Below, piece by piece: positions 1 to 24,184 of a stretch of DNA of 24,531 bases. The position numbers and the translations under genes are program-made. The stretch comes from a virus, in IMG/VR virus record IMGVR_UViG_3300032282_003034, positions 1-24,531 of that record. One strand, 5' to 3'. The notes below the pieces were generated by a model. The model made no database searches, was not told the DNA's origin, and was given only the letters and a program-made list of their open reading frames with translations. Positions within the stretch are counted from its first letter, which is position 1, and every line of letters starts with the position of its first letter.

Positions 1-150
1 CCACTACGTAACTGTTCTATTATTGTATACAAGTCCATAGATTATGATATGATAGATAAATGTAGAAGTGTATTAACTTACCCTCTACAATATATTCAAA
101 TTGTCAATATGATAAGTCAATCTGACAAAGAGATCAGGCTAAGCCGTTGA
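1..150 (+). CDS. 3' end of an unidentified gene (partial)
   Basis: Frame 1 is open from the first base to a TGA at 148-150 and encodes a 49-residue C-terminal fragment ending in KEIRLSR. The start lies outside the window. I do not recognise the fragment. It sits directly upstream of a promoter-separated run of small genes on the same strand, so a phage gene on this strand is reasonable, but a 150-base open frame can occur by chance in AT-rich DNA. No convincing terminator follows; 151-194 is AT-rich with no clear stem. Confidence 0.45.
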   Translation, partial: PLRNCSIIVYKSIDYDMIDKCRSVLTYPLQYIQIVNMISQSDKEIRLSR

Positions 151-194
151 TATCCCATCTTTTAAAAAATTTTATCGGAATCTGAAAAAACCTA

Positions 195-223
195 TTGACA
201 TATTTTTCAGGATAGGTTATAAG
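195..223 (+). promoter_or_regulatory. sigma70-type promoter
   Basis: A -35 box TTGACA (195-200), a 17-base spacer and a -10 box TATAAG (218-223) predict a transcript start near 230. This is the first of at least five similar promoters in the first 3 kb, several sharing GGTTATA at the -10. It should be read by host RNA polymerase early in infection. Confidence 0.75.
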
Positions 224-247
224 AGACTTATGATGAATGAGGTTGGC

Positions 248-481
248 ATGACCGAGAAGATGAACGTGACCATAAGCAATGGTCGACGACCATTGCTGGC
301 TTCAGATGGGCGCTACCACTCCAGTCGGGGCAAGTACCGGAAAGGCGATTTGAGGAAGACCAACCTAGAGGAAGTCGGTACTACATCATTTGGTACTGAT
401 GGATACTATGACGGCTCACCCGGGCGTAAGCGCCGTAAGTCCTGGAAGCGCATAGACAAGTGGTCCTCCCTTGAGGGGTAA
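248..481 (+). CDS. small basic hypothetical protein
   Basis: This encodes 77 residues, rich in Arg, Lys, Gly and Ser, with a basic cluster GRKRRKSWKR near the C-terminus that could contact nucleic acid (inference only). The open frame reaches back to 230, but the predicted transcript begins at about 230. The ATG at 248 has a GAGG ribosome site (238-241) six bases upstream, so I use 248. I recognise no family. The coding stretch contains a near-perfect palindrome at 276-296 and a wider inverted repeat (333-339 with 376-382), so a structured non-coding RNA is an alternative. It is the first gene after its own promoter. Confidence 0.5.
   Translation: MTEKMNVTISNGRRPLLASDGRYHSSRGKYRKGDLRKTNLEEVGTTSFGTDGYYDGSPGRKRRKSWKRIDKWSSLEG
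276..296 (+). repeat. strong inverted repeat (hairpin)
   Basis: GCAATGGTC (276-284) is exactly complementary to GACCATTGC (288-296) with a 3-base centre. At the DNA level the arms are 10 bases around one base. It lies within the first 70 bases of the transcript from the promoter at 195, so it may be an RNA hairpin or a protein-binding palindrome. Confidence 0.7.
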
Positions 482-491
482 AATTCCCTTG

Positions 492-520
492 TTGACTTTA
501 ATCTCTGGTTAGGTTATAAC
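492..520 (+). promoter_or_regulatory. sigma70-type promoter, duplicated copy A
   Basis: TTGACT (492-497), 17-base spacer, TATAAC (515-520). Bases 492-519 are identical to 712-739, spacer included. It drives the 55-residue gene at 548. Confidence 0.8.
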
Positions 521-547
521 TTAACTATGATGAATGAGGAAAACACT

Positions 548-715
548 ATGTATCTTGTAAGTTTTACTAACTTTGGTTATACCAAAGACTTTGCTACCAA
601 GGAACAGGCCCAGACTTATATGGAAAGGGCATGCCTTGAGTCTGTTCTCATGACTGTGAAGGGTGAAATCCTTGGTGGATTCTCTCCCATCTCTGGACTC
701 CAAAAAAACGTTTGA
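548..715 (+). CDS. small hypothetical protein, 55 aa
   Basis: It begins MYLVSFTNFGYTKDFATKEQ. The frame is open from an ATG at 527, but that lies at the predicted transcript start. The ATG at 548 has AGGA (537-540) seven bases upstream, and the same ATGATGAATGAGG leader occurs before the gene at 248, so 548 is preferred. The sequence looks like a small soluble alpha/beta protein with the pattern YLVSFTNFGYTKDFATKEQA; I know no function. Its TGA (713-715) lies inside the -35 box of the next promoter (712-717), so the units are tightly packed. Confidence 0.6.
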   Translation: MYLVSFTNFGYTKDFATKEQAQTYMERACLESVLMTVKGEILGGFSPISGLQKNV

Positions 716-740
716 CTTTAATCTCTGGTTAGGTTATAAA
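712..740 (+). promoter_or_regulatory. sigma70-type promoter, duplicated copy B
   Basis: TTGACT (712-717), 17-base spacer, TATAAA (735-740). The first 28 bases are identical to copy A at 492-519. It drives the gene at 775 through a leader of about 28 bases. Confidence 0.8.
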
Positions 741-774
741 GAGACTATCAATACTACTATAAGAGGATCAGAAC

Positions 775-1032
775 ATGAGCCGTGGTTATCCTTCCATGAG
801 TTACTGCGCCTTTGAAAACACGTCTCTCCATATGGATCAAGTGGCTAATATGCTTGATGAAGCACTATATGAGAGTGAACCTCTAGACTTTAGTGACTAT
901 GAAAAGCGTGCATATGAACGTATGTATGAACAATGCCGTAAATTGATGAGTCTATTGGAAGATCATCAGGCACTGGTCGAAGATATGGCTAATATCGACG
1001 CATGGTCTGAGGAGGATAATCAGGCTGACTAA
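775..1032 (+). CDS. small acidic hypothetical protein, 85 aa
   Basis: The start ATG has AAGAGGA (761-767) seven bases upstream. The protein is acidic and probably mostly helical, with heptad-like stretches from about residue 20 to 75 (MDQVANMLDEALYE, RMYEQCRKLMSLLEDHQALV). No signal peptide or membrane segment is present. I do not recognise a family. It has its own promoter at 712-740 and is followed immediately by another promoter, so it is probably a single-gene early unit. Small acidic helical proteins of this kind in phage early regions often bind host proteins, but nothing here shows that directly. Confidence 0.65.
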   Translation: MSRGYPSMSYCAFENTSLHMDQVANMLDEALYESEPLDFSDYEKRAYERMYEQCRKLMSLLEDHQALVEDMANIDAWSEEDNQAD

Positions 1033-1039
1033 TTAATGG

Positions 1040-1067
1040 TTGACTTTACTATTCTATAAGTTATAAT
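1040..1067 (+). promoter_or_regulatory. sigma70-type promoter of the binding-protein unit
   Basis: TTGACT (1040-1045), 16-base spacer, perfect TATAAT (1062-1067). Predicted start near 1074, about 22 bases before the ATG at 1096. It opens a two-gene unit closed by terminators at 2504-2597. Confidence 0.75.
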
Positions 1068-1095
1068 GTGACTGTTGAAACAAAAGGAATATATT

Positions 1096-2100
1096 ATGAA
1101 GAACCTACTAATGGCGACCGTTTTTGCTCTGACTGCAACTTCAGCAATGGCACAAACTTCAGGCCCAAAGTCAATTAATACAGGTGGAGTTGCTGGTGCT
1201 TATCATAGCACTTTTTGCCCACCAATTCCATCTGTCCTGACTAATGCTTACTTCCAGGGTTATAGCTGCACTCCTTCTGCGGGTACTGTAGAAAATATTG
1301 CACGAGTTCTAAAGACTCCTACAAATATCAGCTTTGTTCAGTTCGATGTATTTGCTCGTGAAGCGGCAAGCCGACCTGAAGAGTTTAAGCGTATCAATGT
1401 GATTCGTACTGATATTGCATGTGAAGGTCTCTGGATGGTGACTAAGAATCCAGACCTAGACTTTGGTCGAGTTCTTGCAATGAGTCGCCGTATTAAGTTC
1501 GTACTACCACCACAGGCTTCTGGATCAACTGCTAGTTTCAACTTTCTTCGATCTGTCGATCCAGATGGACTTGGGCGGGCGCCCGATTCTAACATCACTT
1601 ATGTTAAGGATGCAACTGCGGTTCTAGAAACAGTAGCTAACTCTAATGATGGTGAAGTTGGTTTCTTTGTTCAGTTTGCCGATCCTCGTAATGCTAATAT
1701 CAAGCTAATGGTTGAGAAGAATCTTCGTGTCATTCCAGTGATCTCTCGTGAAATTCTTCGAGCTCGAGTTGGTGAGAATACCGTGTACCAAGCTCAGTCA
1801 TTTAAGCTAACCGAGGGCGGTGTATTTGGTATTGGTGGCTCTGCTCGAGCTGTTACAACTTCCTGCACTCCTGTTGCTCTGATTACAGGTAGTTCTGATG
1901 CATTTGAAGATCGGAATGCTAAGGATGATGCAATTGAACTGGTTCAGCGTGTAAGTGCTGTTCCTCGGGCAAATCTACTTCCAAAGGATAATGCAATTGC
2001 TGCTATTCTGAATGGTGCAACTCGCCTAAGTCAGTCTGCTCTTGAACAAGCTGTAGCTGGTGTAGAAGCCGCTAAGAAGGCTGTGGAGAATGCTCGATGA
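1096..2100 (+). CDS. secreted TAXI/TRAP-type solute-binding-like protein
   Basis: 334 residues. A TTG 21 bases upstream extends the frame, but ATG 1096 has AGGA (1085-1088) seven bases before it and begins a typical signal peptide (MKNLLMATVFALTATSAMAQ, cleavage after AMA or AQ), so the product should be periplasmic. The mature N-terminus carries INTGGVAGAYH, then PSAGTVENIARVL, then FVQFDVFA. These match, in order and spacing, the GTGG..G.Y, S.GS.EN and Q.DV pattern of TAXI-family substrate-binding proteins of TRAP transporters (recalled). Four cysteines (in STFCPP, YSCTPS, DIACEG, TTSCTP) suggest disulfides. The C-terminal 70 residues are helical and Ala-rich. No TRAP permease gene is seen; a small membrane protein gene overlaps its end by ATGA. 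The ligand is unknown. It looks like an acquired host gene, kept intact. Confidence 0.65.
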   Translation: MKNLLMATVFALTATSAMAQTSGPKSINTGGVAGAYHSTFCPPIPSVLTNAYFQGYSCTPSAGTVENIARVLKTPTNISFVQFDVFAREAASRPEEFKRINVIRTDIACEGLWMVTKNPDLDFGRVLAMSRRIKFVLPPQASGSTASFNFLRSVDPDGLGRAPDSNITYVKDATAVLETVANSNDGEVGFFVQFADPRNANIKLMVEKNLRVIPVISREILRARVGENTVYQAQSFKLTEGGVFGIGGSARAVTTSCTPVALITGSSDAFEDRNAKDDAIELVQRVSAVPRANLLPKDNAIAAILNGATRLSQSALEQAVAGVEAAKKAVENAR

Positions 2101-2504
2101 TCAAGAACATCTCCTTCTGGGGATGGTATGCTATTATCACAGTGGGATTATTTGTTATCTATAACCCTACTGGCTATAGCATCTGGCATCTTTGGTCGGT
2201 GTATTCAGCCATTGGTTTTATGCCATGGAATCTACTATTGACAGCTTTTATTCTAGGTCCAATGTCATTGATTCTATATGGAACATATAAAGCAACTAGT
2301 TGGATTGGGCTTGCTTTAATCCTAGTTGTGATTGCTATTACACTCTGGTGTGTTGCAGTTGTAATGCCAGGAATGCTTGTTAATATGGCTGTTCTTGCTT
2401 GGATTACTCAGCCTATTCTAGGTGTTATTCTTACACTGGGTTGGCAATGGCCACGACTTTGGCGTCAAGCAACTGGTACTGTAACCGCAGAAGGAGTCGA
2501 GTAA
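2097..2504 (+). CDS. four-helix inner-membrane protein, DUF6524-like
   Basis: 135 residues; the ATG overlaps the TGA of the upstream gene (ATGA), implying translational coupling. Four hydrophobic segments lie at about residues 8-24, 42-62, 67-90 and 93-118. The motif YNPTGYSIWHLW at residues 22-33 and an acidic C-terminus after WPRLWRQATGTV match a family of ~130-residue membrane proteins of alpha- and other proteobacteria that I recall as DUF6524 (not searched). Its function is unknown. Being coupled to a secreted binding protein, it may anchor or work with it, but it is too small to be a TRAP permease. It is followed at once by a terminator. Confidence 0.65.
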   Translation: MIKNISFWGWYAIITVGLFVIYNPTGYSIWHLWSVYSAIGFMPWNLLLTAFILGPMSLILYGTYKATSWIGLALILVVIAITLWCVAVVMPGMLVNMAVLAWITQPILGVILTLGWQWPRLWRQATGTVTAEGVE

Positions 2505-2536
2505 AGTTTTGTAAGGTAAAGTTACAAAACTTTTTT
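2504..2536 (+). terminator. intrinsic terminator 1 of tandem pair
   Basis: An 11-base perfect stem (2504-2514 with 2522-2532), 7-base loop, then a T run to 2536. The stem starts in the stop codon of the membrane protein gene. Confidence 0.85.
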
Positions 2537-2547
2537 GATAATGATAT

Positions 2548-2597
2548 CAATGGGTTAGTCCTTCGGCAGTCAGTCGTGGGGCTAACCCATTGTTTTT
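2548..2597 (+). terminator. intrinsic terminator 2 of tandem pair
   Basis: An 11-base perfect stem (CAATGGGTTAG 2548-2558 with CTAACCCATTG 2582-2592), 23-base loop, then TTTTT (2593-2597). Two strong terminators in a row seal off the binding-protein unit. Confidence 0.75.
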
Positions 2598-2614
2598 ATA
2601 TGGTTTTTTACCTA

Positions 2615-2643
2615 TTGACATATTTTCCAAAATGGGTTATGGT
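2615..2643 (+). promoter_or_regulatory. sigma70-type promoter
   Basis: TTGACA (2615-2620), 17-base spacer, TATGGT (2638-2643). A stretch resembling the promoter at 195 (CCTATTGACATATTTT followed by a GGTTAT) suggests duplication of the element. Predicted start near 2650, before the small gene at 2667. Confidence 0.65.
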
Positions 2644-2666
2644 ATACCTATAATGAGGGACACACT

Positions 2667-2843
2667 ATGAACGCTGCAACCGTGCTAGATCGTATGTATG
2701 ACTTTGCTCGTACCACCAAGGATGATAAGCTCTCGAATGCCGTGATGCGTGTGGCTGAGCGCTTTGCCTACTCTAAAGCTCTCTTCGAGGAACCCTTGAC
2801 CGTTTCTGAGATCCGTATCGTTAAGAAGTTTATGGATCTCTAA
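2667..2843 (+). CDS. small hypothetical protein, 58 aa
   Basis: ATG 2667 follows AGGGA (2656-2660) by six bases and its own promoter at 2615-2643. The product starts MNAATVLDRMYDFARTTKDD and ends IVKKFMDL. It is helical and soluble; no family recognised. The leader ATGAGG-N-ATG resembles those of the genes at 248 and 548. Codon choice (CGT, CTC, GTG) matches the neighbouring early genes, supporting a real gene despite its size. Confidence 0.6.
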   Translation: MNAATVLDRMYDFARTTKDDKLSNAVMRVAERFAYSKALFEEPLTVSEIRIVKKFMDL

Positions 2844-2856
2844 GAGCTAAAACCGC

Positions 2857-2892
2857 TTTGAAAAAAAGTGGTGGGGTTTGAAAAAAAGTGGT
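2857..2892 (+). repeat. direct repeat upstream of the DUF932 promoter
   Basis: TTTGAAAAAAAGTGGT occurs at 2857-2872 and again at 2877-2892, 20 bases apart (about two helical turns), abutting the -35 box at 2892. The A-tracts in phase could act as an UP-element-like or bent-DNA enhancer, or as an operator. Confidence 0.6.
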
Positions 2893-2920
2893 TGACGTAA
2901 TTTTCAACTTGGTTTAATAT
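2892..2920 (+). promoter_or_regulatory. sigma70-type promoter of the DUF932 gene
   Basis: TTGACG (2892-2897), 17-base spacer, TAATAT (2915-2920). Predicted start near 2927. The transcript would begin just before a hairpin at 2932-2948. Confidence 0.65.
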
Positions 2921-2931
2921 CCGATTATGAC

Positions 2932-2948
2932 ATGGGGATGGTCCCCAT
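2932..2948 (+). promoter_or_regulatory. 5' leader hairpin
   Basis: ATGGGGA (2932-2938) pairs perfectly with TCCCCAT (2942-2948) around TGG. It lies at the extreme 5' end of the predicted DUF932 mRNA, 7 bases before the ribosome site. This is what a transcript-stabilising 5' stem looks like; it could also affect translation. Confidence 0.6.
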
Positions 2949-2967
2949 CAAAACAGAGGGTAAAAAA

Positions 2968-3927
2968 GTGGCTCATAACATTGAGTTTGTCAACGGTAAA
3001 GCTCAGATGGCGTATGCAGGAACCGATACACCTTGGCATGGCCTCGGTGTGCAGGTACCAGATGACCTGACTCCTCAGCAGATGCTTGAGGCTTCAGGTC
3101 TCAATTGGGAAGTCGAGAAGGTCAAGGCCTATGCTAAAGTCAACGGTACAAATGTTGATGTCGGGCATTCGGCTCTGGTTCGGACTATGGATCATAAGAT
3201 TCTAGATATCGTGTCTAACGATTGGAATCCGGTTCAGAACTCTGAAGCGTTTGAGTTCTTCAACGACTTCATTGCCGAGGGTGACATGGAAATGTCGACC
3301 GCTGGTTCTCTGGCAGGTGGTCAGATTGTCTGGGCTCTTGCTAAGATCAAGGACGGCTTTGAACTCTTTGGCGGTGATGTGGTCGAACCTTATCTGCACT
3401 TCACCAACTACCATAAATATGGCTACTCTACTGATGTTCGGTTTACTCCGATTCGTGTAGTCTGCAATAACACTCTGACTTTGTCTCTTAATACAAAGGT
3501 GGAGCTGTTTGTTAAGATTAGTCATCGCCGTGAATTCAATGGTGACTCTGTCAAGCTTGCTCTGGGCGTTGCTCAGGAAAAGCTAGCTAAGTACAAGGAT
3601 ATGGCTAAGTTCCTTGGCACTAAGCGCTATACCAATGAGTCTCTGGTAGAATATTTCAAGCGTGTCTTCCCGGTGTCTGGTGGACCAGATGCTAAGAAGG
3701 AACTGTCTAAGTCTGCTAAGACTGCTATGTCAGTTCTTGACACTCAGCCTGGTGCCAATTTTGCTTCCGGCACTTTCTGGCAGGCCTTTAATGCTACAAC
3801 TTACTTCACTGATCATCTGGCTGGTCGCTCTCAAGATACTCGTCTCCAGTCGGCTTGGTATGGCAATAATAAGGTGCTAAAGACTCGAGCACTTGAAATT
3901 GCGGTTGACATGGCCGAAGCTGCCTGA
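2968..3927 (+). CDS. DUF932 family phage/plasmid protein
   Basis: 319 residues. An in-frame ATG at 2932 would sit five bases from the transcript start and inside a hairpin; GTG 2968 has AGAGGG (2955-2960) seven bases upstream and gives the family's usual start (AHNIEFVNGKAQMAYAG), so I use GTG. The N-terminal TPWHGLGVQVP and the central YSTDVRFTPIRVVCNNTL are hallmarks of DUF932 proteins of phages and plasmids (recalled as TIGR03299-type). Biochemical function is not established. No signal peptide. The two genes downstream (3962 and 4399) form a conserved-looking neighbourhood. Confidence 0.85.
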   Translation: MAHNIEFVNGKAQMAYAGTDTPWHGLGVQVPDDLTPQQMLEASGLNWEVEKVKAYAKVNGTNVDVGHSALVRTMDHKILDIVSNDWNPVQNSEAFEFFNDFIAEGDMEMSTAGSLAGGQIVWALAKIKDGFELFGGDVVEPYLHFTNYHKYGYSTDVRFTPIRVVCNNTLTLSLNTKVELFVKISHRREFNGDSVKLALGVAQEKLAKYKDMAKFLGTKRYTNESLVEYFKRVFPVSGGPDAKKELSKSAKTAMSVLDTQPGANFASGTFWQAFNATTYFTDHLAGRSQDTRLQSAWYGNNKVLKTRALEIAVDMAEAA

Positions 3928-3961
3928 TATAATCCACTTATCAAAACAAGGAAACTGTAAA

Positions 3962-4315
3962 ATGAAGACTTTCACAAAGATGGCTGCCCAGGGTGACTTC
4001 CTTATCATGCGTGTGGATGCTATCCCCGCTAATGTTGAGGTGCTTCCTGCTAATAACAAGAACCACATTGTGGTTGCTCACTCGGAGACTGGTCATGACC
4101 ATGTGATGGTTGCTGACCGTGTTACCGCTTATAAGCCTGCAGGCGTTAAGGATGTTGATCTCTACGAGATGTTCCTCTCAGTTGAGGCTCCTACGGAAAT
4201 CAACCATCTTCGTAGTCATGATACTCATGAGACTCTGCTGGTTCCTCCTGGTAACTATCGTGTTCGTCGCCAGCGTGAATATGTGGCTGAGGGTTTCCGT
4301 CGAGCTCAAGACTAA
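3962..4315 (+). CDS. conserved 'AQGD' protein of unknown function, 117 aa
   Basis: The frame is open from 3893 but that overlaps DUF932; ATG 3962 has AAGGA (3948-3952) and gives the family-like start MKTFTKMAAQGDFLIMRVDA. Further features are VVAHSETGHDHVM (about residues 39-51), an HDTHETLLVPPGNYRVRRQREY stretch that starts near residue 86, and a short C-terminal tail. This order (AQGD.L..RVD, AHGE.TGH.H, VRQREY) matches a family of ~110-130-residue bacterial and phage proteins I recall without a known function. The clustered His residues could bind a metal. It probably shares the DUF932 transcript (34-base gap). Confidence 0.65.
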   Translation: MKTFTKMAAQGDFLIMRVDAIPANVEVLPANNKNHIVVAHSETGHDHVMVADRVTAYKPAGVKDVDLYEMFLSVEAPTEINHLRSHDTHETLLVPPGNYRVRRQREYVAEGFRRAQD

Positions 4316-4332
4316 CCCTAAAGTTTAGGGTT
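4314..4332 (+). other. short hairpin at gene end/promoter start
   Basis: AACCCTAA (4314-4321) pairs with TTAGGGTT (4325-4332) around a 3-base loop. There is no T run, and the right arm overlaps the next -35 box, so it may attenuate read-through or bind a regulator rather than act as a strong terminator. Confidence 0.5.
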
Positions 4333-4359
4333 GACTTAAATCCATAGGTATGGTATACT
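4331..4359 (+). promoter_or_regulatory. sigma70-type promoter with overlapping inverted repeat
   Basis: TTGACT (4331-4336), 17-base spacer, TATACT (4354-4359). An inverted repeat GTATGGT (4348-4354) / ACCATAC (4361-4367) brackets the -10 box and could be an operator. Confidence 0.7.
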
Positions 4360-4398
4360 AACCATACTAACCAATCATAGGGATACGGAACTTATATC

Positions 4399-5250
4399 AT
4401 GAAGAAGATCACTAGCCTGACTCCTGACCAGGAAGCCCAGATGTCTGTGTATCGTGACAAGTGGATCAAGATAGGTCTTAAGACCGATCTGATCGACACC
4501 GACCGTGCTCGAGCCGCAGTAGAGCTACTGTATTCTTGTGGTGGTCTTAAGTCACCCGATAAGATTGTGTTTGCTCGAGGTCCTCGTCACGCCAAGGAAC
4601 TGCTTGGTCCTGATCACGCAGTAACTGATAGCTGTGTTTATGGTAACCATGAGGCAGCATGGCTTTCTTTCTACGACTATATGCAGAATGTATGTGGTAT
4701 TGATTTTGAGGGTAAGCTTGATGGTCTAATGGCAGTTGCAACTGAATGCGGTTGGGTGTCTTGTTATGACACTATGGCTGTGATTCAGGATCGCCCACTT
4801 CATATCAAGATGGATGAGGATAACCGACTCCATTGCGAGAATGGTCCTGCCATTCTATATGCTGATGGCTTTGCAGTGTATGCTTGGCATGGTGTTCGTA
4901 TTCCTCGTGAATGGATTGAAAATAAGGCTAACCTGTCTGCCAAGACCGCTCTTACCTGGGAGAATGTAGAGCAGCGTCGAGCTGCTTGTGAAATCCTTGG
5001 CTGGGTTAATATCATCCGAGAGCTAGATGCCAAGACTGTGGACACCGATGAGGATCCCATGATTGGTACTCTTCTTGAGGTTGATATTCCCGATATCGGT
5101 CGGGAGAAGTTTCTTCGTGTACAGTGTGGCACTGGTCGTGAATTTGCTCTACCAGTACCACCCGATATGAAGACTGCACTTCAGGCTAATGCCTGGACAT
5201 TTGGAATGGATGATCCTAATGAGCTTCTTAACCTTGAAATTCGTACTTAA
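4399..5250 (+). CDS. DUF6745-like protein, 283 aa
   Basis: Starts MKKITSLTPDQEAQMSVYRD; a GGA (4387-4389) lies nine bases upstream. The central part has RLHCENGPAILYADGFAVYAWHGVRIP (about residues 142-169), then WIENK and a stretch in which IT/LTWENVE..RRA..E.. precedes LRVQCGTGREFALPVPPDMKTALQANAWTFGM near the C-terminus. This order (H.E.GPA..Y.DG...Y.WHGVRVP, W...., LRVPP...TA..A.AWTFG) is that of a bacterial family I recall as DUF6745, which often lies next to the 'AQGD' gene. Function unknown. It has its own promoter and probably continues into the genes at 5268 and 5541. Confidence 0.6.
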   Translation: MKKITSLTPDQEAQMSVYRDKWIKIGLKTDLIDTDRARAAVELLYSCGGLKSPDKIVFARGPRHAKELLGPDHAVTDSCVYGNHEAAWLSFYDYMQNVCGIDFEGKLDGLMAVATECGWVSCYDTMAVIQDRPLHIKMDEDNRLHCENGPAILYADGFAVYAWHGVRIPREWIENKANLSAKTALTWENVEQRRAACEILGWVNIIRELDAKTVDTDEDPMIGTLLEVDIPDIGREKFLRVQCGTGREFALPVPPDMKTALQANAWTFGMDDPNELLNLEIRT

Positions 5251-5267
5251 CAGAAAGGCATTATATA

Positions 5268-5528
5268 ATGACACCTGCTTCTAAAATTGATGTGACACTA
5301 GCATTTACTCGCCGTGGTGGAGAGCGTAATGAAACTTATTCCTATGACTTTACTCTAGGTGAGGAAGAGACCTATCATATTGTCCTAGAGAAAGTAGAAC
5401 AGATGCTAGTCGCACTAGGGTATGTTCCTGATGGTCATCTCGACTTTGTGTCTAGCACTGACAATAGCCCGTCCTACCTAACAGAGACACCTTCTAACGT
5501 GACTACCATGTTTACCATCAATCCTTGA
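5268..5528 (+). CDS. hypothetical protein, 86 aa
   Basis: AAAGG (5253-5257) precedes ATG 5268 by ten bases and 17 bases separate it from the previous stop. The sequence reads like a small mixed alpha/beta protein (IDVTLAFTRRGGERNETYSYDF, then a helix around HIVLEKVEQMLVALGYV). No membrane segment. I do not recognise it. It is followed 12 bases later by the 389-residue gene and probably belongs to the same transcript. Confidence 0.6.
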   Translation: MTPASKIDVTLAFTRRGGERNETYSYDFTLGEEETYHIVLEKVEQMLVALGYVPDGHLDFVSSTDNSPSYLTETPSNVTTMFTINP

Positions 5529-5540
5529 TAGGAATATACA

Positions 5541-6710
5541 ATGGCTAAGTCGGCTGCAACACCTAAGTCTCTTAAGGTTACCAAGAAACTTAAGCCTAAA
5601 CTTACTAGGTCCGAGCAGTATCTTATCAACCTCAAGTACATGGGTGAAGAGCCGACTTTCAAGCCAGATGTTCTGGTAAACGATCAGGCCTACAGTTCGG
5701 CTCTGACTTGGTATAACTACATGTGCACTAAGTCAGATGCTCGATCTTATATTGAGTCATTTCTAAAAGCATCTGGTCGACTTGACGAACTACAGCGTAT
5801 TAAAACTCTACCAGATAATAAACTGGTAGATCATCCTTGCTGGATTGCCAGGATGCTTTCTCGTGGTGTTAAACTGACTCAACGGTCTATTGACCATATG
5901 AATCTTAAGATCAAAGAGATGATTCTTCTTACAGATAAGAAAGAAGATGATCAAGAGATTAAGACCACACATATTGTTAAAGACGAAAAGGTAATCTCTA
6001 TCCAAGATCGAGTTCGTGAGAAAGCATCCAATTTCATTGGTATGTTTGATGAACAGATTGACCGTGATGGTTGGACTATTGATACCTATGAATGGCTAAC
6101 TAGGCATGAAGTATCGCCTATGATTGCTTCTAGGTTCAATGAGCACTTTAAACCAATCTCTGACGAGGCTAATGAACTGCTGAGGAAGGATTGCGCACCT
6201 TCACTGAAAGAAGGTTATAGCCATCTGACTAAGGATCAAATTAAGCAACGAGCCACATTCTATGCTTCAATCATTTCTGATGTAGAGCGTTATGTAGGTA
6301 ATACCAAGAAGCAGAAGGCTCAACGTAAGCCAAAACCAATTTCTACTGATAAGAAACTTAAGAACTTCAAGTACATGAAAGAATGTAAGGATCTAAAACT
6401 ATCATCTGTTGTACCAGAAAAGATTCTTGGTTCTCAGGAATTGTTGGCATACAATACACGGTATAATACCTTTACAGTGTTTCAGGCGCTTGATCGAGGC
6501 GGACTAGATGTAGCTGGAACCACTATCAAAAACTACAATGAGTCAACTACCGCCACATACAGGATTGGTTCTAAAAAGTCAGAAACATTCCTAGGCATGG
6601 TACTGAACGGTGGTAAGAGAGTTTTGGCTAAAGCACTGAATGACTATAAGAAACTAGATGCTGTTCAAGACCGTATCAATGAAAATACCATCCTTCTACG
6701 GATCAACTAA
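5541..6710 (+). CDS. conserved T4-like phage protein of unknown function, 389 aa
   Basis: AGGAA-type site (5530-5534) precedes ATG 5541. The N-terminus is very basic (KSLKVTKKLKPKLTRS); residues ~30-110 carry the YLINLKYMGEEPTF and SALTWYNYMC stretches, residues ~270-300 are again Lys-rich, and the C-terminal third has KLSSVVPEKILGSQELLAYN, VAGTTIKNYNESTT and a final helical part ending ENTILLRIN. I recall proteins with this C-terminal pattern (SxxPxKIxGaqElw.YNT, GTTI.NF.E..S, NENTILLK) as common, uncharacterised proteins of marine T4-like phages. The basic ends suggest nucleic-acid binding (inference). Confidence 0.65.
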   Translation: MAKSAATPKSLKVTKKLKPKLTRSEQYLINLKYMGEEPTFKPDVLVNDQAYSSALTWYNYMCTKSDARSYIESFLKASGRLDELQRIKTLPDNKLVDHPCWIARMLSRGVKLTQRSIDHMNLKIKEMILLTDKKEDDQEIKTTHIVKDEKVISIQDRVREKASNFIGMFDEQIDRDGWTIDTYEWLTRHEVSPMIASRFNEHFKPISDEANELLRKDCAPSLKEGYSHLTKDQIKQRATFYASIISDVERYVGNTKKQKAQRKPKPISTDKKLKNFKYMKECKDLKLSSVVPEKILGSQELLAYNTRYNTFTVFQALDRGGLDVAGTTIKNYNESTTATYRIGSKKSETFLGMVLNGGKRVLAKALNDYKKLDAVQDRINENTILLRIN

Positions 6711-6721
6711 GGAGTATAACG

Positions 6722-6928
6722 ATGCGTGATACTACACAAAAAGTACTCAAGCAACCACTAGATGCACCTATCGGCAAGAAGATGATGGTTACCACACCAT
6801 GGGGTTCTAAGGAAGAGGCTAACGTATTTGAGGTTGTGGATGTTCTACACGGTCCATTCTTACAGGCCACAATCTATAACTCTCCTAACAACTTCAAAGT
6901 TCGGTGTAGCACATTCCGAGTTCGATAA
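6722..6928 (+). CDS. small hypothetical protein, 68 aa
   Basis: A strong AAGGAG site (6709-6714) overlaps the stop of the previous gene and precedes ATG 6722 by seven bases. The protein looks like a small beta-barrel (KKMMVTTPWGSKEEANVFEVVDVLHGPFLQATIYNS), possibly SH3-like; this is only an impression. No family recognised. It is the last protein gene before the tRNA promoter. Confidence 0.6.
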   Translation: MRDTTQKVLKQPLDAPIGKKMMVTTPWGSKEEANVFEVVDVLHGPFLQATIYNSPNNFKVRCSTFRVR

Positions 6929-6935
6929 ATATCTG

Positions 6936-6964
6936 TTGATAGTATGATTAAATAGGTATATACT
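6936..6964 (+). promoter_or_regulatory. sigma70-type promoter of the tRNA-like gene
   Basis: TTGATA (6936-6941), 17-base spacer, TATACT (6959-6964). Predicted start near 6971, five bases before the tRNA acceptor stem. It may also serve the protein operon from 7128, since no terminator is seen between. Confidence 0.65.
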
Positions 6965-6975
6965 ATACATATAAT

Positions 6976-7057
6976 GACCCTGTATCAGTCCCGCCTTCTA
7001 AGCGGTCGTTAAAGCTGTAATTGGAGTATGGGAGTTCGAACCTCTCCAGGGTCGCCA
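6976..7057 (+). tRNA. tRNA-Arg(UCU)-like RNA without a D arm
   Basis: A perfect 7-base acceptor stem GACCCTG (6976-6982) pairs with CAGGGTC (7047-7053), followed by discriminator G7054 and encoded CCA (7055-7057). The T arm is GGGAG (7030-7034), loop TTCGAAC, CTCTC (7042-7046). The anticodon arm is CCGC (6991-6994), loop CTTCTAA with anticodon TCT (6997-6999), GCGG (7002-7005), decoding AGA (and AGG by wobble). Only eight bases separate acceptor and anticodon stems, so there is no D arm, while about 24 bases of unpaired-looking sequence lie between anticodon and T arms. A standard tRNA-Arg(UCU) appears to have lost its D arm and gained an insert. Its own promoter lies just upstream. It may be functional, processed differently, or a decayed relic. 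Confidence 0.55.
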
Positions 7058-7986: not shown

Positions 7987-8156
7987 CAGTAGAAGAATAT
8001 GAACTTGGTATACTAAGATCTGCATTTAGAGTCAATATGTTAAGATATACAGATGTTCCACCGGTTGAAATTAATAAATTACTTGATGATATTCATGAAG
8101 AAGCTGTGAGGAGATACAAAAATGATTCTAGACAAGACAGTAACATTTGCAACTGA
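7983..8156 (+). CDS. small hypothetical protein, 57 aa
   Basis: The ATG overlaps the previous TGA (ATGA) and the end overlaps the start of gp33 by 35 bases. The product starts MTVEEYELGILRSAFRVNML and ends QDSNICN; it is helical and charged. The overlap at both ends and the ribosome site of gp33 inside its coding region indicate translational coupling. I do not recognise a family. Confidence 0.5.
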   Translation: MTVEEYELGILRSAFRVNMLRYTDVPPVEINKLLDDIHEEAVRRYKNDSRQDSNICN

Positions 8157-8346
8157 TATTGAAAATCTAATTACTGAAAAGCAGATGGAATGCATTGATG
8201 CTGTAGTCCATTGGTGTGAATCAAACGATATTGAAGTGGATCTAGCTGCTAATCTAATTAAATCTAATGCAGTTCTACTATCCAAGATTCAATCCGAGGC
8301 AGAGAATCTCAACATCCTAAAGCGCACCGCCAAGCTACCTATCTAA
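8122..8346 (+). CDS. 33: gp33-like late transcription co-activator
   Basis: 74 residues; AGGAG (8108-8112) precedes the ATG. Residues ~12-67 (IENLITEKQMECIDAVVHWC, then ESNDIEVDLAANLIKS and SKIQSEAENLN) align with the core of T4 gp33, which has a matching EKMV..GMSYLEAT..F.EEN and IIEKIQSEA pattern. T4 gp33 bridges the sliding clamp and host RNA polymerase to activate late promoters. The T4 N-terminal extension and C-terminal LDFLL-type clamp tail are not evident; this protein ends KRTAKLPI. Position directly before gp59 and gp32 matches the T4 order. It would act at the TATAAATA promoters at 8928 and 19514-19539; the gp55 sigma factor is not in this window. Confidence 0.7.
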   Translation: MILDKTVTFATDIENLITEKQMECIDAVVHWCESNDIEVDLAANLIKSNAVLLSKIQSEAENLNILKRTAKLPI

Positions 8347-8921
8347 TGTCACCATATGAATGTTATGTTGACTATCTAGCTCTCAAACGACATTTTACAA
8401 CTGAGAGTTACGACTATTTTAAATATAACGGTAAAGTCTCTGCTAAACAAGACTCATTTCAAAAACGAAAAGATAAATTCTTTTTTGAAAAAATATCACG
8501 ACACCGTGATCCACATGAATTTATAATCTCTAATTTAATTAAGAATCCAAGAGCATGGGTTAGAGATATTGCTTATTCTGATGTGGCTGAATCCAATTAT
8601 CAAGATTGGATCAAGAAAAAACAATCATTAAGTTATATCATCAGTAATGAACTTTCACATTTGCATGATGATTTTGACTCAAATTTTAAAGTGCTTGATG
8701 GGCAAATTCCACATATCATTGCTTTATATCTGGGTAATAAAATCTCACTAGAGACAGTTCTAATTTGTGTTGATATTTTAGGTTGTTTACCATATTGGAA
8801 TAAAGTTCTTAAAGACAATATCATATGGACTGATATGGGTATGCTCATTAGAAAAGCATTACCATTCATAAAATATGATAAGTCTAAGATCAAGAAAATC
8901 TTTATTGACAAGTTCTCTTGA
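8346..8921 (+). CDS. 59: gp59 DNA helicase loader
   Basis: 191 residues (T4 gp59: 217). The start overlaps the gp33 stop (TAATG). The N-terminal region YDYFKYNGKVSAKQDSFQKRKDKFFFEKIS is the family signature (T4: DVIKYNWCMR...AYQKRRDKYFFQKLS), and HEFIISNLIKNPRAWVRDI also aligns. T4 gp59 loads the gp41 helicase onto gp32-coated forked DNA and gates the polymerase. Basic and mostly helical, as expected. The next gene is its partner gp32. The end is followed by the late promoter for gp32. Confidence 0.9.
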   Translation: MSPYECYVDYLALKRHFTTESYDYFKYNGKVSAKQDSFQKRKDKFFFEKISRHRDPHEFIISNLIKNPRAWVRDIAYSDVAESNYQDWIKKKQSLSYIISNELSHLHDDFDSNFKVLDGQIPHIIALYLGNKISLETVLICVDILGCLPYWNKVLKDNIIWTDMGMLIRKALPFIKYDKSKIKKIFIDKFS

Positions 8922-8927
8922 TTGATA

Positions 8928-8935
8928 TATAAATA
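8928..8935 (+). promoter_or_regulatory. T4-type late promoter for gp32
   Basis: A perfect TATAAATA, just after the gp59 stop. Predicted start near 8941, inside or at the base of a hairpin. T4 late promoters need only this -10 box, read by the phage sigma factor gp55 with gp33 and the clamp. Confidence 0.75.
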
Positions 8936-8938
8936 TAA

Positions 8939-9006
8939 GTGAGGAAACAACCTCACATACAAATATACAAACATATTATATATACAAATATACAAGGATT
9001 ATTAAA
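8939..9006 (+). promoter_or_regulatory. gp32 mRNA leader: hairpin plus unstructured A/U-rich operator
   Basis: GTGAGG (8939-8944) pairs with CCTCAC (8951-8956) around AAACAA. From 8957 to the ribosome site AAGGA (8994-8998) the leader is almost only A, T and C, with ATACAAATATACAA repeated (8957-8970 approximately and 8981-8994 approximately). T4 gp32 represses its own translation by nucleating at a 5' structure and coating an unstructured A/U-rich leader; the layout here fits that model. Inference from layout only. Confidence 0.55.
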
Positions 9007-9924
9007 ATGGATTTTTCCGCACTAAAAAAGAATTCTGGTAAGTCTTCTCTAGAAAAACTTACACAAGAGCTATCCAAGCTCAATAATACAGAATCTAAGG
9101 GTGATGCCCGTATGTGGTATCCTCAGACAGATAAGGCTGGTAATGGTTATGCTGTTATTCGGTTCCTTCCCCCACCACCAAATGAAGATGTACCATTTGT
9201 TCGAGTCTTTGAACATGGTTTCAAGGGACCTACAGGTCTATGGTATATTGAGAATTCACTTACAACAATCGGTCAAACTGATCCAGTTGGTGAACTTAAT
9301 TCCAAACTATGGAATTCTACTACCGATGATGAATCTCCTGCTCGCAAACAAGCTCGTGCTCAGAAGCGTAAGCTAACATTTATCTCTAATATCTATGTTA
9401 TTCAGGATCAAAATAATCCTGAGAACAACGGTAAGGTATTCCTATTCAAGTTTGGTAAGAAGATCTTTGATAAGCTAAATGAGGCTATGAATCCTCAATT
9501 TGCTGATGAAGATGCTCTAAACCCATTTGACTTCTGGGCTGGTGCTAACTTCAAGCTTAAGATTCGTAATGTTGAAGGTTATCGTAACTACGATAAATCT
9601 GAATTTGCAACTTCTGGTCCTCTATTTGATGATGATTCAGAACTAGAGTCTGTTTGGAAACAACAACATTCACTCAAGGCTTTCCTTGATTCTTCTAACT
9701 TTAAGAGTTATGAAGAACTATCTAAGCGACTAGCTGCTGTTCTTGGTCTTGATAAGAGTCCTGCTTCTTCTCGTGTTCAAGCTGCTGCACGTCAGAATGA
9801 TCCTACAGAGGATCAACTACCTTGGGCAGAACCAAAAGCTACAAAGACTGCTGAAACTAAATCTACAACATCGGATGACGATGATGAGGATATTGAGTTT
9901 TTTAAGAAACTAGCAAAAGACTAA
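9007..9924 (+). CDS. 32: gp32 single-stranded DNA-binding protein
   Basis: 305 residues (T4: 301). The N-terminal ~20 residues are the basic cooperativity domain; the core has NGYAVIRFLPPP (residues ~39-50), FEHGFKGPTGLWYIE (~68-82), a basic QARAQKRKLTF (~116-126), NNGKVFLFKFGKKIFDKLN (~138-156) and FDFWAGANFKLKIRNVEGYRNYD, all aligning with T4 gp32. The C-terminus is an acidic tail (DDDDEDIEFFKK) for recruiting partner proteins. It coats replication-fork DNA and works with gp59. The T4 zinc site (His-Cys-Cys-Cys) is gone: the His is kept but the protein has no cysteine at all. Start supported by AAGGA eight bases upstream. A bidirectional terminator follows. Confidence 0.95.
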   Translation: MDFSALKKNSGKSSLEKLTQELSKLNNTESKGDARMWYPQTDKAGNGYAVIRFLPPPPNEDVPFVRVFEHGFKGPTGLWYIENSLTTIGQTDPVGELNSKLWNSTTDDESPARKQARAQKRKLTFISNIYVIQDQNNPENNGKVFLFKFGKKIFDKLNEAMNPQFADEDALNPFDFWAGANFKLKIRNVEGYRNYDKSEFATSGPLFDDDSELESVWKQQHSLKAFLDSSNFKSYEELSKRLAAVLGLDKSPASSRVQAAARQNDPTEDQLPWAEPKATKTAETKSTTSDDDDEDIEFFKKLAKD

Positions 9925-9930
9925 TAAACT

Positions 9931-9960
9931 AAAAAGGGAACCATTTGGTTCCCTTTTTTT
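9931..9960. terminator. bidirectional intrinsic terminator
   Basis: AAAAAGGGAACC (9931-9942) pairs perfectly with GGTTCCCTTTTT (9947-9958) around ATTT. Rightward it ends in seven Ts (9954-9960); leftward its A run (9931-9935) becomes Us. It separates gp32 from the convergent late operon, whose last stop codon overlaps it. Confidence 0.9.
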
Positions 9961-12900
9961 ATGCTGCCATATCAAATAGTAATGCATATCGTTGAGCAGC
10001 ATCTGGTGGTTCAACATTACCTGGATTACCCATACTAATAGGATAAGAAGTATCTCCAACACCAGGAGATGAAGTCCCAGAGCTTGGTACATCAGGTGTT
10101 GGTGCAGATGGTGTCATAGGAGTTCGTTTAGCCACTTCATTATCAACTGATGCTGTTGCTACAGTAGGTCCAGAGCTTGGTGCTGATGGTGTCATTGATG
10201 CTGGTTGATCTCCACCACCAGGAGTCATTTCACCACCACCTGATGTAGTACTTGCAACCGGTGTTGCTGTTTCACCACCACCATCTGTTGATTCACCGCC
10301 TGATGCAGTTGCTGTCATTGGTGTTGCAGATACTTGAGATGCTTGTTGTGCACCATCGGTACTTGTATCGGGCGGTGCAGATCGGCCACCTATTCTTTCT
10401 ACGTGAACAGGATCATTAGGAAATGGTCTATGTAGACCATATTTCCTTAATAATCCCATTGAATCCATTTCCTCTAAAGCATTTCTAGTAACATCTAGTG
10501 CCCTTGCAGAAGAAGATGATCCCCCATGTGATGATTTTGTTCTACCACCGGGTACATTAAATGTTTGACCTTTATAATTTATAGTTGTATCTTTGTCTGG
10601 CTTTGCTGGCATATAAATGCCAGGTTCTTTAAATATTCTTCCTCTAACCCAAAGTTCGGCTTGTTTTTCATCACTACGAAAACCTGAATTAATTTTTACA
10701 GGTTTACCATATTCTTTAGCCGCAGCATAAAAACCACCTAATAAATCTTTATCTACTTTTGAAATATCTACACCAGAATCAATTGTTACATTTTCTGGTT
10801 TTTCAGATGTACCACCTTGAGATTGTGATTGATCTTGCCCCTGTTGTGTAGAAGTATCAGAGCCAGAACCAAATGAAGGCATTGTTGGTGGTCTCATACC
10901 ACCACTAACGTTAGCAAATGAAACTGGTGATGCTAATCCGCCAGAAGAACTCATACTACCACCAGCTAGATTTGGTGTTACTGCCGCACCTTGACCAGAT
11001 ACATTCATAATTGTATTCATAAAATCTGATAATTCTTCCTTGATAGCATCCAAGAAAGGTGCTTCCATCTTATCAGATTTAAAAACAATATCTCTAGCAG
11101 TAATGGTTAAACTGTCTGATGTATCCCCAGAAGATCGTCTTCTTGTTCTTTTAGGTCTAGCCATTGGTCTGGAAGTTGGTTCTGACCCTGCTTCTTGCCA
11201 ACCAGTATCGGTAGATTCTGCTTCTTGCCAACCAGTATCTGTTGTATCATCCATATAAGTTTGTGATACAGGACTTAATAAATCTTTATCTACTGGTTCA
11301 GCATCACTTACAGGTGTTTCCGACTGTTGTGGTGTTACAACTGGATTAGAGTTTGCAACCGAAGGAGAACTTAATAATTCTTCATCTATTATTTGATTTC
11401 TTAATTCTGCTTTTTCCGCAGGTAATAATTTACGACTTAATGCTTCTTCTTCTTCTTTTAGCTTTTGTTGATAGATTTCATCAACTTTTTTAGTAAATTC
11501 AGGAGAAAATTGATCAACTCTAGGTTTATTAGATTTTCTTTCAAATGCACCCGATATAGATTTACTTACTAATTCATCTCTTTTTTGCACTTCTGCATCT
11601 GGTGTTGCAGGAGCAACTGCTTGTTTTGGTGGAATATATATAGATTCTTTACTAGCTCTTCTTTCTGCATTAGCTATAGCTTCAGATTGTGCAGAACCAC
11701 CAGAACCTGGATTTAATAAAGCTAATTCTTCAGTTTTATATTTTTGTAGTAATTGTCCGTATAGTTGTTCTTTATTATCAGTTATAATATTAGCACTAGC
11801 AGGTGTTGCTTGTGGTGTTGCTGATACTGATGTTGTATTTACCTGAGGCACTGGAGTTACATTAGCACTAGCAGGTATTTGTGGTGTTGGTACAATATTA
11901 GCACTAGCAGGTGTTGCTTGTGGTGTTGCTGATACTGATGTTGTATTTACCTGAGGCACTGGAGTTACATTAGTACTAGCAGGTATTTGTGGTGTTGGTA
12001 CAATATTAGCACTAGCAGGTGTTGCTTGTGGTGTTTCTGTAATTGAAGGTATTGGTGTAATACCAGCATTCTTTCCAGTTGTATCAACAATTGCAAAATC
12101 TTTAGGGGGTTCTTTTTCTAATTCTTTTTCTAAATCGCTATATTGTTTATTAAATTCTTTTAATTTAGTTTCATCAGTTTGATTTCTTTTACTAAAAACT
12201 TCTTCTGCTTGTTTTTGAATATCATTTGTAGAAACACCACGAGCATTGTTTAAAATACGACGAACATTAGAATATTCATCTCTTGCAGATGAATATTCTT
12301 CAATTATATTTTTTTGTAAAATTTTTCTTTTTTGATCTATTGTTTCATAATATTTTAAATCTGATTCTAATTTAGCAAGTATACCCAATGTTTGTGTATC
12401 AGCTGGTCTTCTTTTTTCAAAAGAAATTTGTTTTTCTGTTGTAATTTTTTTAGATGCAATTTTATCTGAAAGTTTATCATTTTCATCAAGTTTTATTAAT
12501 AAATCATTATATTCAGATAATGTCTTTTTAATCTTTTCCTCAATAGTATTTGAATCAGATGGCGTTATTATTTGGCTTGCTGTTTGCTGTGATGCTGGTT
12601 GTGATATTATTGATGATACTGATGGTCTTGCAGGTGATGGAGTAGATACAGATGCTGTTTGATTTTGTTGTAAAAATTGAATAACATTCATAGCGGTGCT
12701 AGAAGCACTTACAAAACTACTATAATCTTGTTGAGGTATTACATTTGAAGATACTGGTGTAATATTATTAGCAGGTGTAACAGGTACCTGAGGCACTGGT
12801 GTTACATTAGCACTAGCAGGTATTGCATCTGGTGTTGCAGGTACATTAGCACTAGCAGGTATTGCATCTGGTGTTGCTGATACTGATGTTGTATTTACCT

Positions 12901-15118: not shown

Positions 15119-15121
15119 TGT

Positions 15122-16408
15122 TTATGCCTGTAAATTTTGAAGTCTGATATTAATAGGTACTTCACCAACTTGTGGTGCTGAAGATGGAGCAGTTGGCTGT
15201 TGTATTGGTCCTGGTGTTGGTCCTGCCAATGAACTAATTTGTTGTCCAACACCACGCATTTGTGCTTGATCTGCTGCTTCAGTTGTTGCACCAGCTTGTG
15301 ATAGTTGTGGACCTGTGCCAGGAGTACCAGGAACTTGTTGTGCTTGTTGAGATGTATCTCCACCGCCACCACGAATCATTCCTACAATTGTAGGACCACG
15401 ATTACCTACTTGTTTAAACCATGCACTATTTTGCATTTCATTCGCAAATGTTTGCACGTCACCTTTAGCTAAAGCAGCAGATGCGGCAGGAAATTTTCTA
15501 TACCAAGCAGGACCCATATTAAAAGTTAAATCAATAACCGCAGCTTGACCACTAGAATTTAATTTTTCAAAACCTGGTATACGCTGTGCCGCTGCTTTAT
15601 GTTCTGCAAAGTCTTTAGCAAATAATTGATCTATTTCTTGTGGCGAGAATTTTTTATTCCATTCTGGTGGTAATGTTGGTCCTATCATATGACCAACACC
15701 TACAGTCCATAACCCAACAGAATCTTTATATGGTGTATATCTAACATCTTCGTGTTTCTTAATCATCGCCATAACAGATGCATCGTCACCAGACGGCATT
15801 TGTACTTCACCACCACCCAAACCCGTATTTTGTTGAGGATTCATTTGACCACCAGAAGTCATTCCTGATGCTGCTACTGGTGTAGCGCTTGGCATTTGTG
15901 GTGCTGTTGATCTGACAATATATCCACCGCCGGGTTGACTAATGCCGCCGGTTGCCTGACCTGAAAAATTATCTTGTTGTCCGCCGCTGGCTGTTCTTCC
16001 TGATCCACCTGAAGATAATGTTTGAACTGCTGATTGTAAAGCACCAAAACCAGAAGGCATTGCTGGCATTTGAGGCGCTGATGTTGCAGCAGATGCGGCA
16101 TTTGAATCTGATGATTGAATAGCTGGACTTGAAATATTACTAGTTAAACCACCAGCAGATTGTATATTAGATCTTTTAATATTTCCAAGTAAATCAGATA
16201 ATGTAAAATCTAGTTCATCTACATCAAAAACTAAATTTTGACTTATTAATTCTATTTCTGAAAATACTTTCTTTGATAGAAAAGCAGTCATCATATTTGA
16301 TTCTGCAATTCTTTCTGCATCTTTATCAACAATTGAATTGGCGACTTGAGAAGCCATATACTCCGCTAGACTTAACTTATCAATGTCGCCAACTTGTCCT
16401 TCTAACAT
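15122..16408 (-). CDS. GH24 muramidase with long low-complexity flanks
   Basis: 428 residues. Residues 1-85 are charged and helical; 85-205 are Gly/Ser/Pro/Gln-rich; 211-347 form a T4-lysozyme-type (GH24) domain with catalytic triad Glu220, Asp229, Thr235 in KHEDVRYTPYKDSVGLWTVG, spacing 9 and 6 as in T4 lysozyme, and later INMGP-type LTFNMGP. The C-terminus is Pro/Gln-rich and ends PINIRLQNLQA. The domain cuts the peptidoglycan glycan chain. No signal peptide. The gene overlaps the holin-like gene by one base and precedes the giant M15 protein. It could be the endolysin or, given the extra N-terminal region and setting among baseplate genes, a structural lysin for entry; T4 carries its tail lysozyme in gp5, which here has none. 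Confidence 0.85.
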   Translation of the reverse strand: MLEGQVGDIDKLSLAEYMASQVANSIVDKDAERIAESNMMTAFLSKKVFSEIELISQNLVFDVDELDFTLSDLLGNIKRSNIQSAGGLTSNISSPAIQSSDSNAASAATSAPQMPAMPSGFGALQSAVQTLSSGGSGRTASGGQQDNFSGQATGGISQPGGGYIVRSTAPQMPSATPVAASGMTSGGQMNPQQNTGLGGGEVQMPSGDDASVMAMIKKHEDVRYTPYKDSVGLWTVGVGHMIGPTLPPEWNKKFSPQEIDQLFAKDFAEHKAAAQRIPGFEKLNSSGQAAVIDLTFNMGPAWYRKFPAASAALAKGDVQTFANEMQNSAWFKQVGNRGPTIVGMIRGGGGDTSQQAQQVPGTPGTGPQLSQAGATTEAADQAQMRGVGQQISSLAGPTPGPIQQPTAPSSAPQVGEVPINIRLQNLQA

Positions 16409-16863
16409 TATCTAGAACTCATACCTTGTATTTTTTCTTGCCCACGAGACCAAGCGGCAACACCAAGAATAGCACCAAATGCCATATGGATAAGACCACC
16501 ATTACTTAATGTTAAACTAACCCAAGCAGTATAAGTCATATTAAAACCAAATGCTTTACCTAATACTGGTAAAAACATTGTAATTAATGGAAATATAATG
16601 AAATCAAAAGCACAGATAACCATATAGAGCCAACCCATAGCTGGTCTCCAATAGGTTCTCACCCATGATTCTTCTTGTTTCTTTATATTATACTCTGCAT
16701 TTAATTTATCTATTTCAGCAGAAGTAACAGTTTTTTGTTGACTATTACTTGAAGTATTGGTATAATTAGATTGAGGAAGAGAGGATGATATATTAGTCCT
16801 CTGATCATTGGTATCTGGTAATGGGTCTGGTCCATTATCATCGTCTGTAGGTCTAGCTGGCAT
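16408..16863 (-). CDS. holin-like membrane protein, 151 aa
   Basis: A hydrophilic Asn/Ser-rich N-terminus (1-55) is followed by WVRTYWRPAMGWLYMVICAF and three hydrophobic stretches at about residues 70-95, 98-112 (amphipathic) and 122-140, then a basic tail (SRGQEKIQG). The RPxxGWxY start and three-helix layout resemble the GTA-type 3-TM holins (PF11351-like) that I recall for alphaproteobacterial phages and gene-transfer agents. Holins form pores that release the endolysin. The adjacent, one-base-overlapping muramidase gene supports a lysis module. The gp51 frame overlaps its start by 11 bases. A different three-helix membrane protein cannot be excluded. Confidence 0.7.
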   Translation of the reverse strand: MPARPTDDDNGPDPLPDTNDQRTNISSSLPQSNYTNTSSNSQQKTVTSAEIDKLNAEYNIKKQEESWVRTYWRPAMGWLYMVICAFDFIIFPLITMFLPVLGKAFGFNMTYTAWVSLTLSNGGLIHMAFGAILGVAAWSRGQEKIQGMSSR

Positions 16864-17038
16864 GTCTGTTCCGTTGCTCCTCTAACTCTTTAAGGAATTG
16901 CAGCAACATTTCAACAAACATATCACGCTCGAATGGTATTAAATTTTCAATATCTGCAACTGAGTATTTATGATGCTGAATCATTGCAAACATAGAGATA
17001 TAATAATTCTCTAATGTGTTGTGATTCAGCCCAATGTA
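16853..17038 (-). CDS. 51: gp51-like baseplate hub assembly segment, reached by -1 frameshift
   Basis: From codon TAC (17038-17036) to TAG (16855-16853) this frame reads 61 residues, YIGLNHNTLENYYISMF..., with QHHKYSVADIENLIPFERDM, matching the small gp51-type ORF I recall in marine T4-like phages (HxYSixDlExmiPFERDxY). No good start exists: the first ATG (16993) cuts into the NTLENYY stretch and there is no ribosome site upstream. The frame is joined to gp26 at a T7 run (17044-17038). It ends 11 bases inside the holin gene. gp51 helps assemble the baseplate hub in T4. An independent 46-residue product from ATG 16993 is the alternative. Confidence 0.65.
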   Translation of the reverse strand, partial: YIGLNHNTLENYYISMFAMIQHHKYSVADIENLIPFERDMFVEMLLQFLKELEEQRNRHAS

Positions 17039-17730: not shown

Positions 17731-17798
17731 AATCTAAAATTCCTAATAATTTTCAGTTTTAAATGATTTATTATTTTAAACGTTATAAGATATGAATA

Positions 17799-19503: not shown

Positions 19504-19513
19504 TTATCACTCA

Positions 19514-19521
19514 TATAAATA
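19514..19521 (+). promoter_or_regulatory. T4-type late promoter, rightward
   Basis: Perfect TATAAATA. Predicted start near 19527-19528, giving a leader of about 23 bases before the gp48/54 gene, which has a TAGGGA site (19538-19543). It drives the 19551-24531 baseplate operon. Confidence 0.75.
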
Positions 19522-19531
19522 TAATAAAATT

Positions 19532-19539
19532 TATTTATA
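19532..19539 (-). promoter_or_regulatory. T4-type late promoter, leftward
   Basis: TATTTATA on the plus strand reads TATAAATA on the minus strand. Predicted start near 19525, about 22 bases before gp4. The two divergent late promoters lie 10 bases apart and their start regions overlap each other. Confidence 0.7.
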
Positions 19540-19550
19540 GGGATTTAAAT

Positions 19551-20486: not shown

Positions 20487-20498
20487 TAGTATTTAAAA

Positions 20499-21377: not shown

Positions 21378-21378
21378 T

Positions 21379-22611: not shown

Positions 22612-22617
22612 TTAAAT

Positions 22618-24183: not shown

Positions 24184-24184
24184 T

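Follow-up and report, generated by a model that had tools for sequence, protein, structure and literature searches.

Why does a T4-like bacteriophage encode a predicted exported solute-binding protein next to a small membrane protein, with no transporter gene beside them? The question is raised by a short unit in a 24.5-kb virus record (IMG/VR IMGVR_UViG_3300032282_003034; 24,531 nt), a genome fragment that was analysed at its full length and is here called the window. In this unit a gene for a TAXI-like binding protein (gene 1) is followed by a gene for a DUF6524 protein (gene 2). Our tentative reading, to which we assign a probability of roughly 40%, is that the pair forms a phage auxiliary nutrient-uptake unit, in which the binding protein captures a solute and the DUF6524 protein provides docking or coupling. 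While pstS is already known in phages, phage proteins for the capture of amino acids or organic acids have only been annotated, and we found no study of them as far as we searched.

Organization and genomic setting of the unit

The promoter, the two coupled genes and the two strong terminators described in an initial annotation were all borne out at 1040-2602, from the sequence and from folding compared with shuffled sequence (Table 1). The gene 1 stop and the gene 2 start overlap by 4 nt (ATGA). A TTG start of gene 1 at 1075, present in the ORF listing, is not needed. The unit had been called self-contained, and it does have its own promoter; the promoter is no special mark of it, as neighbouring genes in the 1-4.5 kb region have the same type. 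Four forward promoter sites matching at least 10 of 12 consensus positions were observed in the first 5 kb (0.37 expected), and because such strong sites precede the neighbouring genes too, it is usual for genes in this region to have promoters of their own. Among viral relatives, a promoter site lies at nearly the same distance upstream of the gene start in L001-L003, and similar sites occur in L004 and L006. The neighbouring genes at 2932-3927 and 4399-5250 encode DUF932 and DUF6745 proteins, respectively.

Table 1. Positions in the window of the features of the unit
Feature	Position	Strand	Basis or remark
Promoter	1040..1067	+	sigma70-type, TTGACT-16-TATAAT, 11/12 consensus match
Gene 1, 334-aa putative secreted TAXI-like solute-binding protein	1096..2100	+	ATG start; phrog_6856 match; fold comparison
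Predicted Sec-type signal peptide	1096..1152	+	probable cleavage after Ala19 (SAMA/QT)
Tyr36, aligned with VcGluP Tyr45 (ligand site)	1201..1203	+	alignment; PMC11574862
Gln82, aligned with VcGluP Gln93 (ligand site)	1339..1341	+	alignment; PMC11574862
Glu110, aligned with VcGluP Glu125 (ligand site)	1423..1425	+	alignment; PMC11574862
Gene 2, 135-aa DUF6524 four-helix membrane protein	2097..2504	+	PF20134 match; predicted helices
Intrinsic terminator 1	2503..2536	+	2503-2533: -10.4 kcal/mol, z -3.8 vs shuffled sequence, then T run
Intrinsic terminator 2	2548..2598	+	2548-2592: -32.6 kcal/mol, z -8.0 vs shuffled sequence, then T run

The T4-like assignment of the phage was confirmed: the genome is of T4 type because PHROGs of T4-type phage proteins (ssDNA-binding protein, helicase loader, DNA end protector, head closure and baseplate) match other genes of the window, although a strictly lytic lifestyle cannot be read from a fragment. 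The GC content is 43% in the early-type region (1-7000) and 34% in the rest (8000-24531). On the reverse strand, a 1719-aa ORF (9959-15118) contains long TPASANV-type repeats, which correspond to tandem repeats in the DNA at 11.8-13.7 kb.

Predicted export signal, fold and ligand site of the gene 1 protein

The signal region of gene 1, MKNLLMATVFALTATSAMAQ, has typical n, h and c regions, and alanines 17 and 19 of its A-x-A motif are invariant in relatives. The signal peptide is therefore intact as a sequence pattern, as had been stated, and it is from this pattern that export itself is predicted. Four cysteines, also pointed out earlier, are present at positions 41, 58, 109 and 257 and are likewise invariant in relatives.

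Membership of the TAXI family, for which an HMM search had been suggested, was recovered by predicted fold but not by sequence profiles. A Pfam search gave no match in the gene 1 protein, PF16868 included, and the NCBIfam TAXI model TIGR02122 reached 12.7 bits against a cut-off of 84.35, which places the protein below the curated sequence cut-offs of both TAXI models. No TAXI match was returned from a PDB sequence search with a seven-member profile, and the homologue in L014 has a weak NMT1_3 match (E 0.005). The fold was modelled with AlphaFold2 from eight sequences (pLDDT 79; the best of five models, clearly ahead of the other four). With VIA-align, six TAXI solute-binding proteins ranked first, with Z scores of 18.3-20.6 across some 255 residues compared with 13.4 for the next fold, and Foldseek placed TAXI binding proteins on top as well. 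Structural similarity to TAXI proteins, on which the assignment had been staked beforehand, was thus found, and the model predicts a two-lobe TAXI fold.

In addition to the ligand-site residues in Table 1, Gly143 and Thr64 are aligned with Gly156 and Ser75 of VcGluP. Across the aligned proteins (6 rows from T4-type viruses, 4 cellular and 3 from jumbo phages), the residues at the positions of VcGluP Tyr45, Gln93, Glu125 and Gly156 do not vary, and the Ser75 position holds either Thr or Ser. Tyr45 and Gln93 matter most in VcGluP, where Y45A and Q93A cause 213-fold and 990-fold losses of affinity (PMC11574862). The far-lobe glutamate contacts of VcGluP are replaced in the gene 1 protein (Y200 to Gln, M201 to Phe, H123 to Ala and D157 to Ser). 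We infer from the aligned residues that an amino-acid-type pocket has probably been kept with altered selectivity; because the glutamate-site core is retained while the other lobe has changed, the actual ligand may be something other than glutamate.

The DUF6524 membrane protein

The partner had been described as DUF6524-like, and PF20134 matched it at E=1e-11 with 45.1 bits against a cut-off of 27; its relatives in phages score 35-65 bits. About four membrane helices are predicted; no acidic residue lies inside them, and basic residues are confined to positions close to helix ends or to the C-terminal end. Applied to the positive charges at residues 3, 65, 120 and 123, the positive-inside rule suggests a cytoplasmic location for both ends of the protein. 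Nearly all of the 36 DUF6524 members compared, from phages and from cells, have the motif Y22-N-P-x-G-x-S-x4-W33 (gene 2 numbering) in their first outer loop. Gene 2 was considered as the small TRAP subunit DctQ (PF04290) and rejected, the HHalign probability against 24 DctQ sequences being 0.8%. The DUF6524 model had no match in a fold search, a result of little weight given the poor quality of the model (pLDDT 69), and no mention of DUF6524 was found in the literature searched. A pattern scan of genome contigs found no relative of DUF6524; this is attributed to the pattern method, since the PF20134 profile later matched many genomes.

Conservation of the pair in viruses and distribution in bacteria

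The binding protein and DUF6524 are encoded by adjacent genes in the same order and on the same strand in all nine viral relatives found, which together with the window represent about six sequence lineages. The pair genes overlap in L001-L005 and are separated by short gaps in L006 and L014, and beyond the closest relatives the genes around the pair differ. Both genes are under purifying selection, with rough dN/dS values, dS being near saturation, of about 0.04-0.06 for gene 1 (against L001 and L002) and 0.09-0.15 for gene 2. The remark that no transporter accompanies the pair held for the vicinity and for the related viral contigs; the DctM permease (PF06808) had no match in the window, in the nine viral contigs, which are fragments, or in three complete phage genomes.

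In L012 (5957-6208) and L013 (from 4835), which have identical units, the pair genes are separated by a small secreted-looking ORF that shares 4 nt with the start of DUF6524; it is possibly a third component. The L005 unit is located inside a 12-tRNA array (L005:351-4155), and the jumbo-phage TAXI genes of L016, L017 and L018 are also located by tRNA arrays.

The nearest cellular binding proteins are 53-58% identical to the gene 1 protein and occur in six Acetobacteraceae or Roseomonas-type genomes, where neither a permease nor DUF6524 was found beside them. DUF6524 is present elsewhere in the genome in three of these six, and five that were searched have 8-24 DctM permeases. Few of the sampled genomes carry a member of the binding-protein clade (4/150 in the family, 1/385 in the class), and DUF6524 above the cut-off is commoner (9/150 and 21/385, respectively). 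No binding-protein neighbour recurred in 27 cellular DUF6524 loci. The pairing was observed in phages alone, because the cellular binding proteins are orphans with DUF6524 unlinked. A tree built from the phage and cellular binding proteins gave no clear direction for the transfer between them. In Acetobacteraceae-type loci (L069, L070, L073-L078), DUF6524 belongs to a conserved cluster that includes a bestrophin-like channel gene (PF14023), and several of these clusters also contain a carbonic-anhydrase-like gene.

Possible functions of the pair

The uptake reading builds on features computed here, namely gene coupling, the export-signal pattern, the fold, the ligand-core residues and the conservation of the pair, and from it we infer a ligand, contact between both proteins, use of a host permease and a benefit to the phage. 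The early-type promoter would drive expression of the accessory unit; gene 1 would supply a periplasmic TAXI-type Venus-flytrap protein capturing a small amino acid or organic acid; and gene 2 would supply a small four-helix inner-membrane protein, which most probably offers the ligand-loaded binding protein a docking site at the membrane or links it with a host permease. Candidate permeases may be TRAP, GltS or another, and uptake would rise during infection, by analogy with PstS in cyanophages. This reading is favoured by the TAXI fold, the conserved ligand core, purifying selection, the 9/9 pairing with differing neighbours, the TAXI-GltS and cyanophage pstS precedents and the DctM permeases in five bacterial genomes. 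It is weakened by the nearest cellular homologues, which are themselves orphans beside no permease, by the lack of a DctQ relation of DUF6524 in HHalign and by the replaced far-lobe contacts.

An abundant exported protein might instead withhold a metabolite, or compete with the host's own binding protein for access to its permease or receptor, DUF6524 serving as an anchor. Such sequestration or sensing agrees with the absence of a permease from every phage record tested and with the complete jumbo-phage relatives that have the binding protein and lack DUF6524; however, it requires a host system dependent on a cognate binding protein, and DUF6524 is kept beside the binding protein in the T4-type branch although a simple decoy needs none, which leaves this role doubtful. 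The make-up of the pair also recalls imm, sp and rI, the phage exclusion and lysis-control genes of T4, and an early-type promoter, a small membrane protein, a periplasmic partner and the lack of a transporter gene would all suit a unit that blocks DNA entry of other phages or adjusts lysis or the envelope. The binding fold would then be a mere scaffold, yet the ligand core does not vary among phage and cellular relatives and the protein evolves slowly, which is unlike an idle pocket or an arms race, and we judge this role unlikely. Because the ligand residues are conserved and purifying selection is strong, ligand binding is favoured over exclusion.

DUF6524 might itself be a transporting subunit or channel, the pair then being a complete minimal importer. 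The constant adjacency of the genes is in line with this, and a role in solute movement is conceivable from the frequent clustering of cellular DUF6524 with bestrophin-like channel and carbonic-anhydrase-like genes; but 135 aa and four helices are small for a secondary transporter, the charge distribution of the helices offers no acidic residue, and cellular members are unlinked to a binding protein, all of which make the proposal very improbable. It is also quite unlikely, in our estimate, that the TAXI-like protein and DUF6524 constitute a new binding-protein-dependent uptake system with DUF6524 as the membrane part, assembled in phages; if true, two gene families unlinked in bacteria would have been joined in phages. 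The conserved DUF6524 neighbour is a direct, testable lead to the role of such phage binding proteins, and to that of DUF6524 in Alphaproteobacteria.

Comparison with known systems

The gene 1 protein shares with the TAXI proteins of TRAP transporters (VcGluP/VC0430, PDB 8s4j; TtGluBP, 1us4; 4ddd) the predicted fold over residues 20-306, the export-signal pattern and the aligned Tyr/Gln/Glu/Gly core residues. It differs from them in its sequence scores below the cut-offs, its replaced far-lobe contacts, its four cysteines and the absence of a TRAP membrane gene nearby. Orphan TAXI proteins exist in cells, and one is coupled with GltS rather than with a TRAP permease (PMC12344293). In this Bordetella system (BP0403) the TAXI gene likewise overlaps the gene of a non-TRAP membrane protein, which is a Na/glutamate symporter there and a 135-aa DUF6524 protein here.

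T4-like cyanophages carry pstS (PMC2984593), and raised uptake during infection has been proposed for PstS. That protein is also a host-like periplasmic binding protein in a T4-type phage, although of another family and with another ligand. We know of no membrane partner gene for cyanophage PstS. Cellular DUF6524 proteins (PF20134) have the NPxGxSx4W motif, the four helices and the length of the gene 2 protein, whereas those found here are unlinked to a binding protein.

The view that a TAXI-like protein is very unusual for a phage was not supported: annotations of such proteins exist for jumbo phages of Erwinia and Klebsiella, Pseudaeromonas phage KLEP7 and Vibrio phage RYC, and TAXI-like receptors have been reported in Ralstonia phages RP12/RP31 (PMC5468394), with a fold match to an RP12 protein. 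The receptors of Klebsiella FBKp24, Erwinia Asesino and Pseudaeromonas KLEP7 are likewise phage-borne, putatively secreted relatives of NMT1_3/TAXI with the same core residues, and no DctM gene accompanies them in the three complete genomes tested. They differ in being about 25% identical to the gene 1 protein and shorter, in passing the PF16868 cut-off, which the gene 1 protein does not, and in the absence of DUF6524 from the three genomes searched. The TAXI-like receptor half of the unit is therefore not new to phages; its pairing with DUF6524 is.
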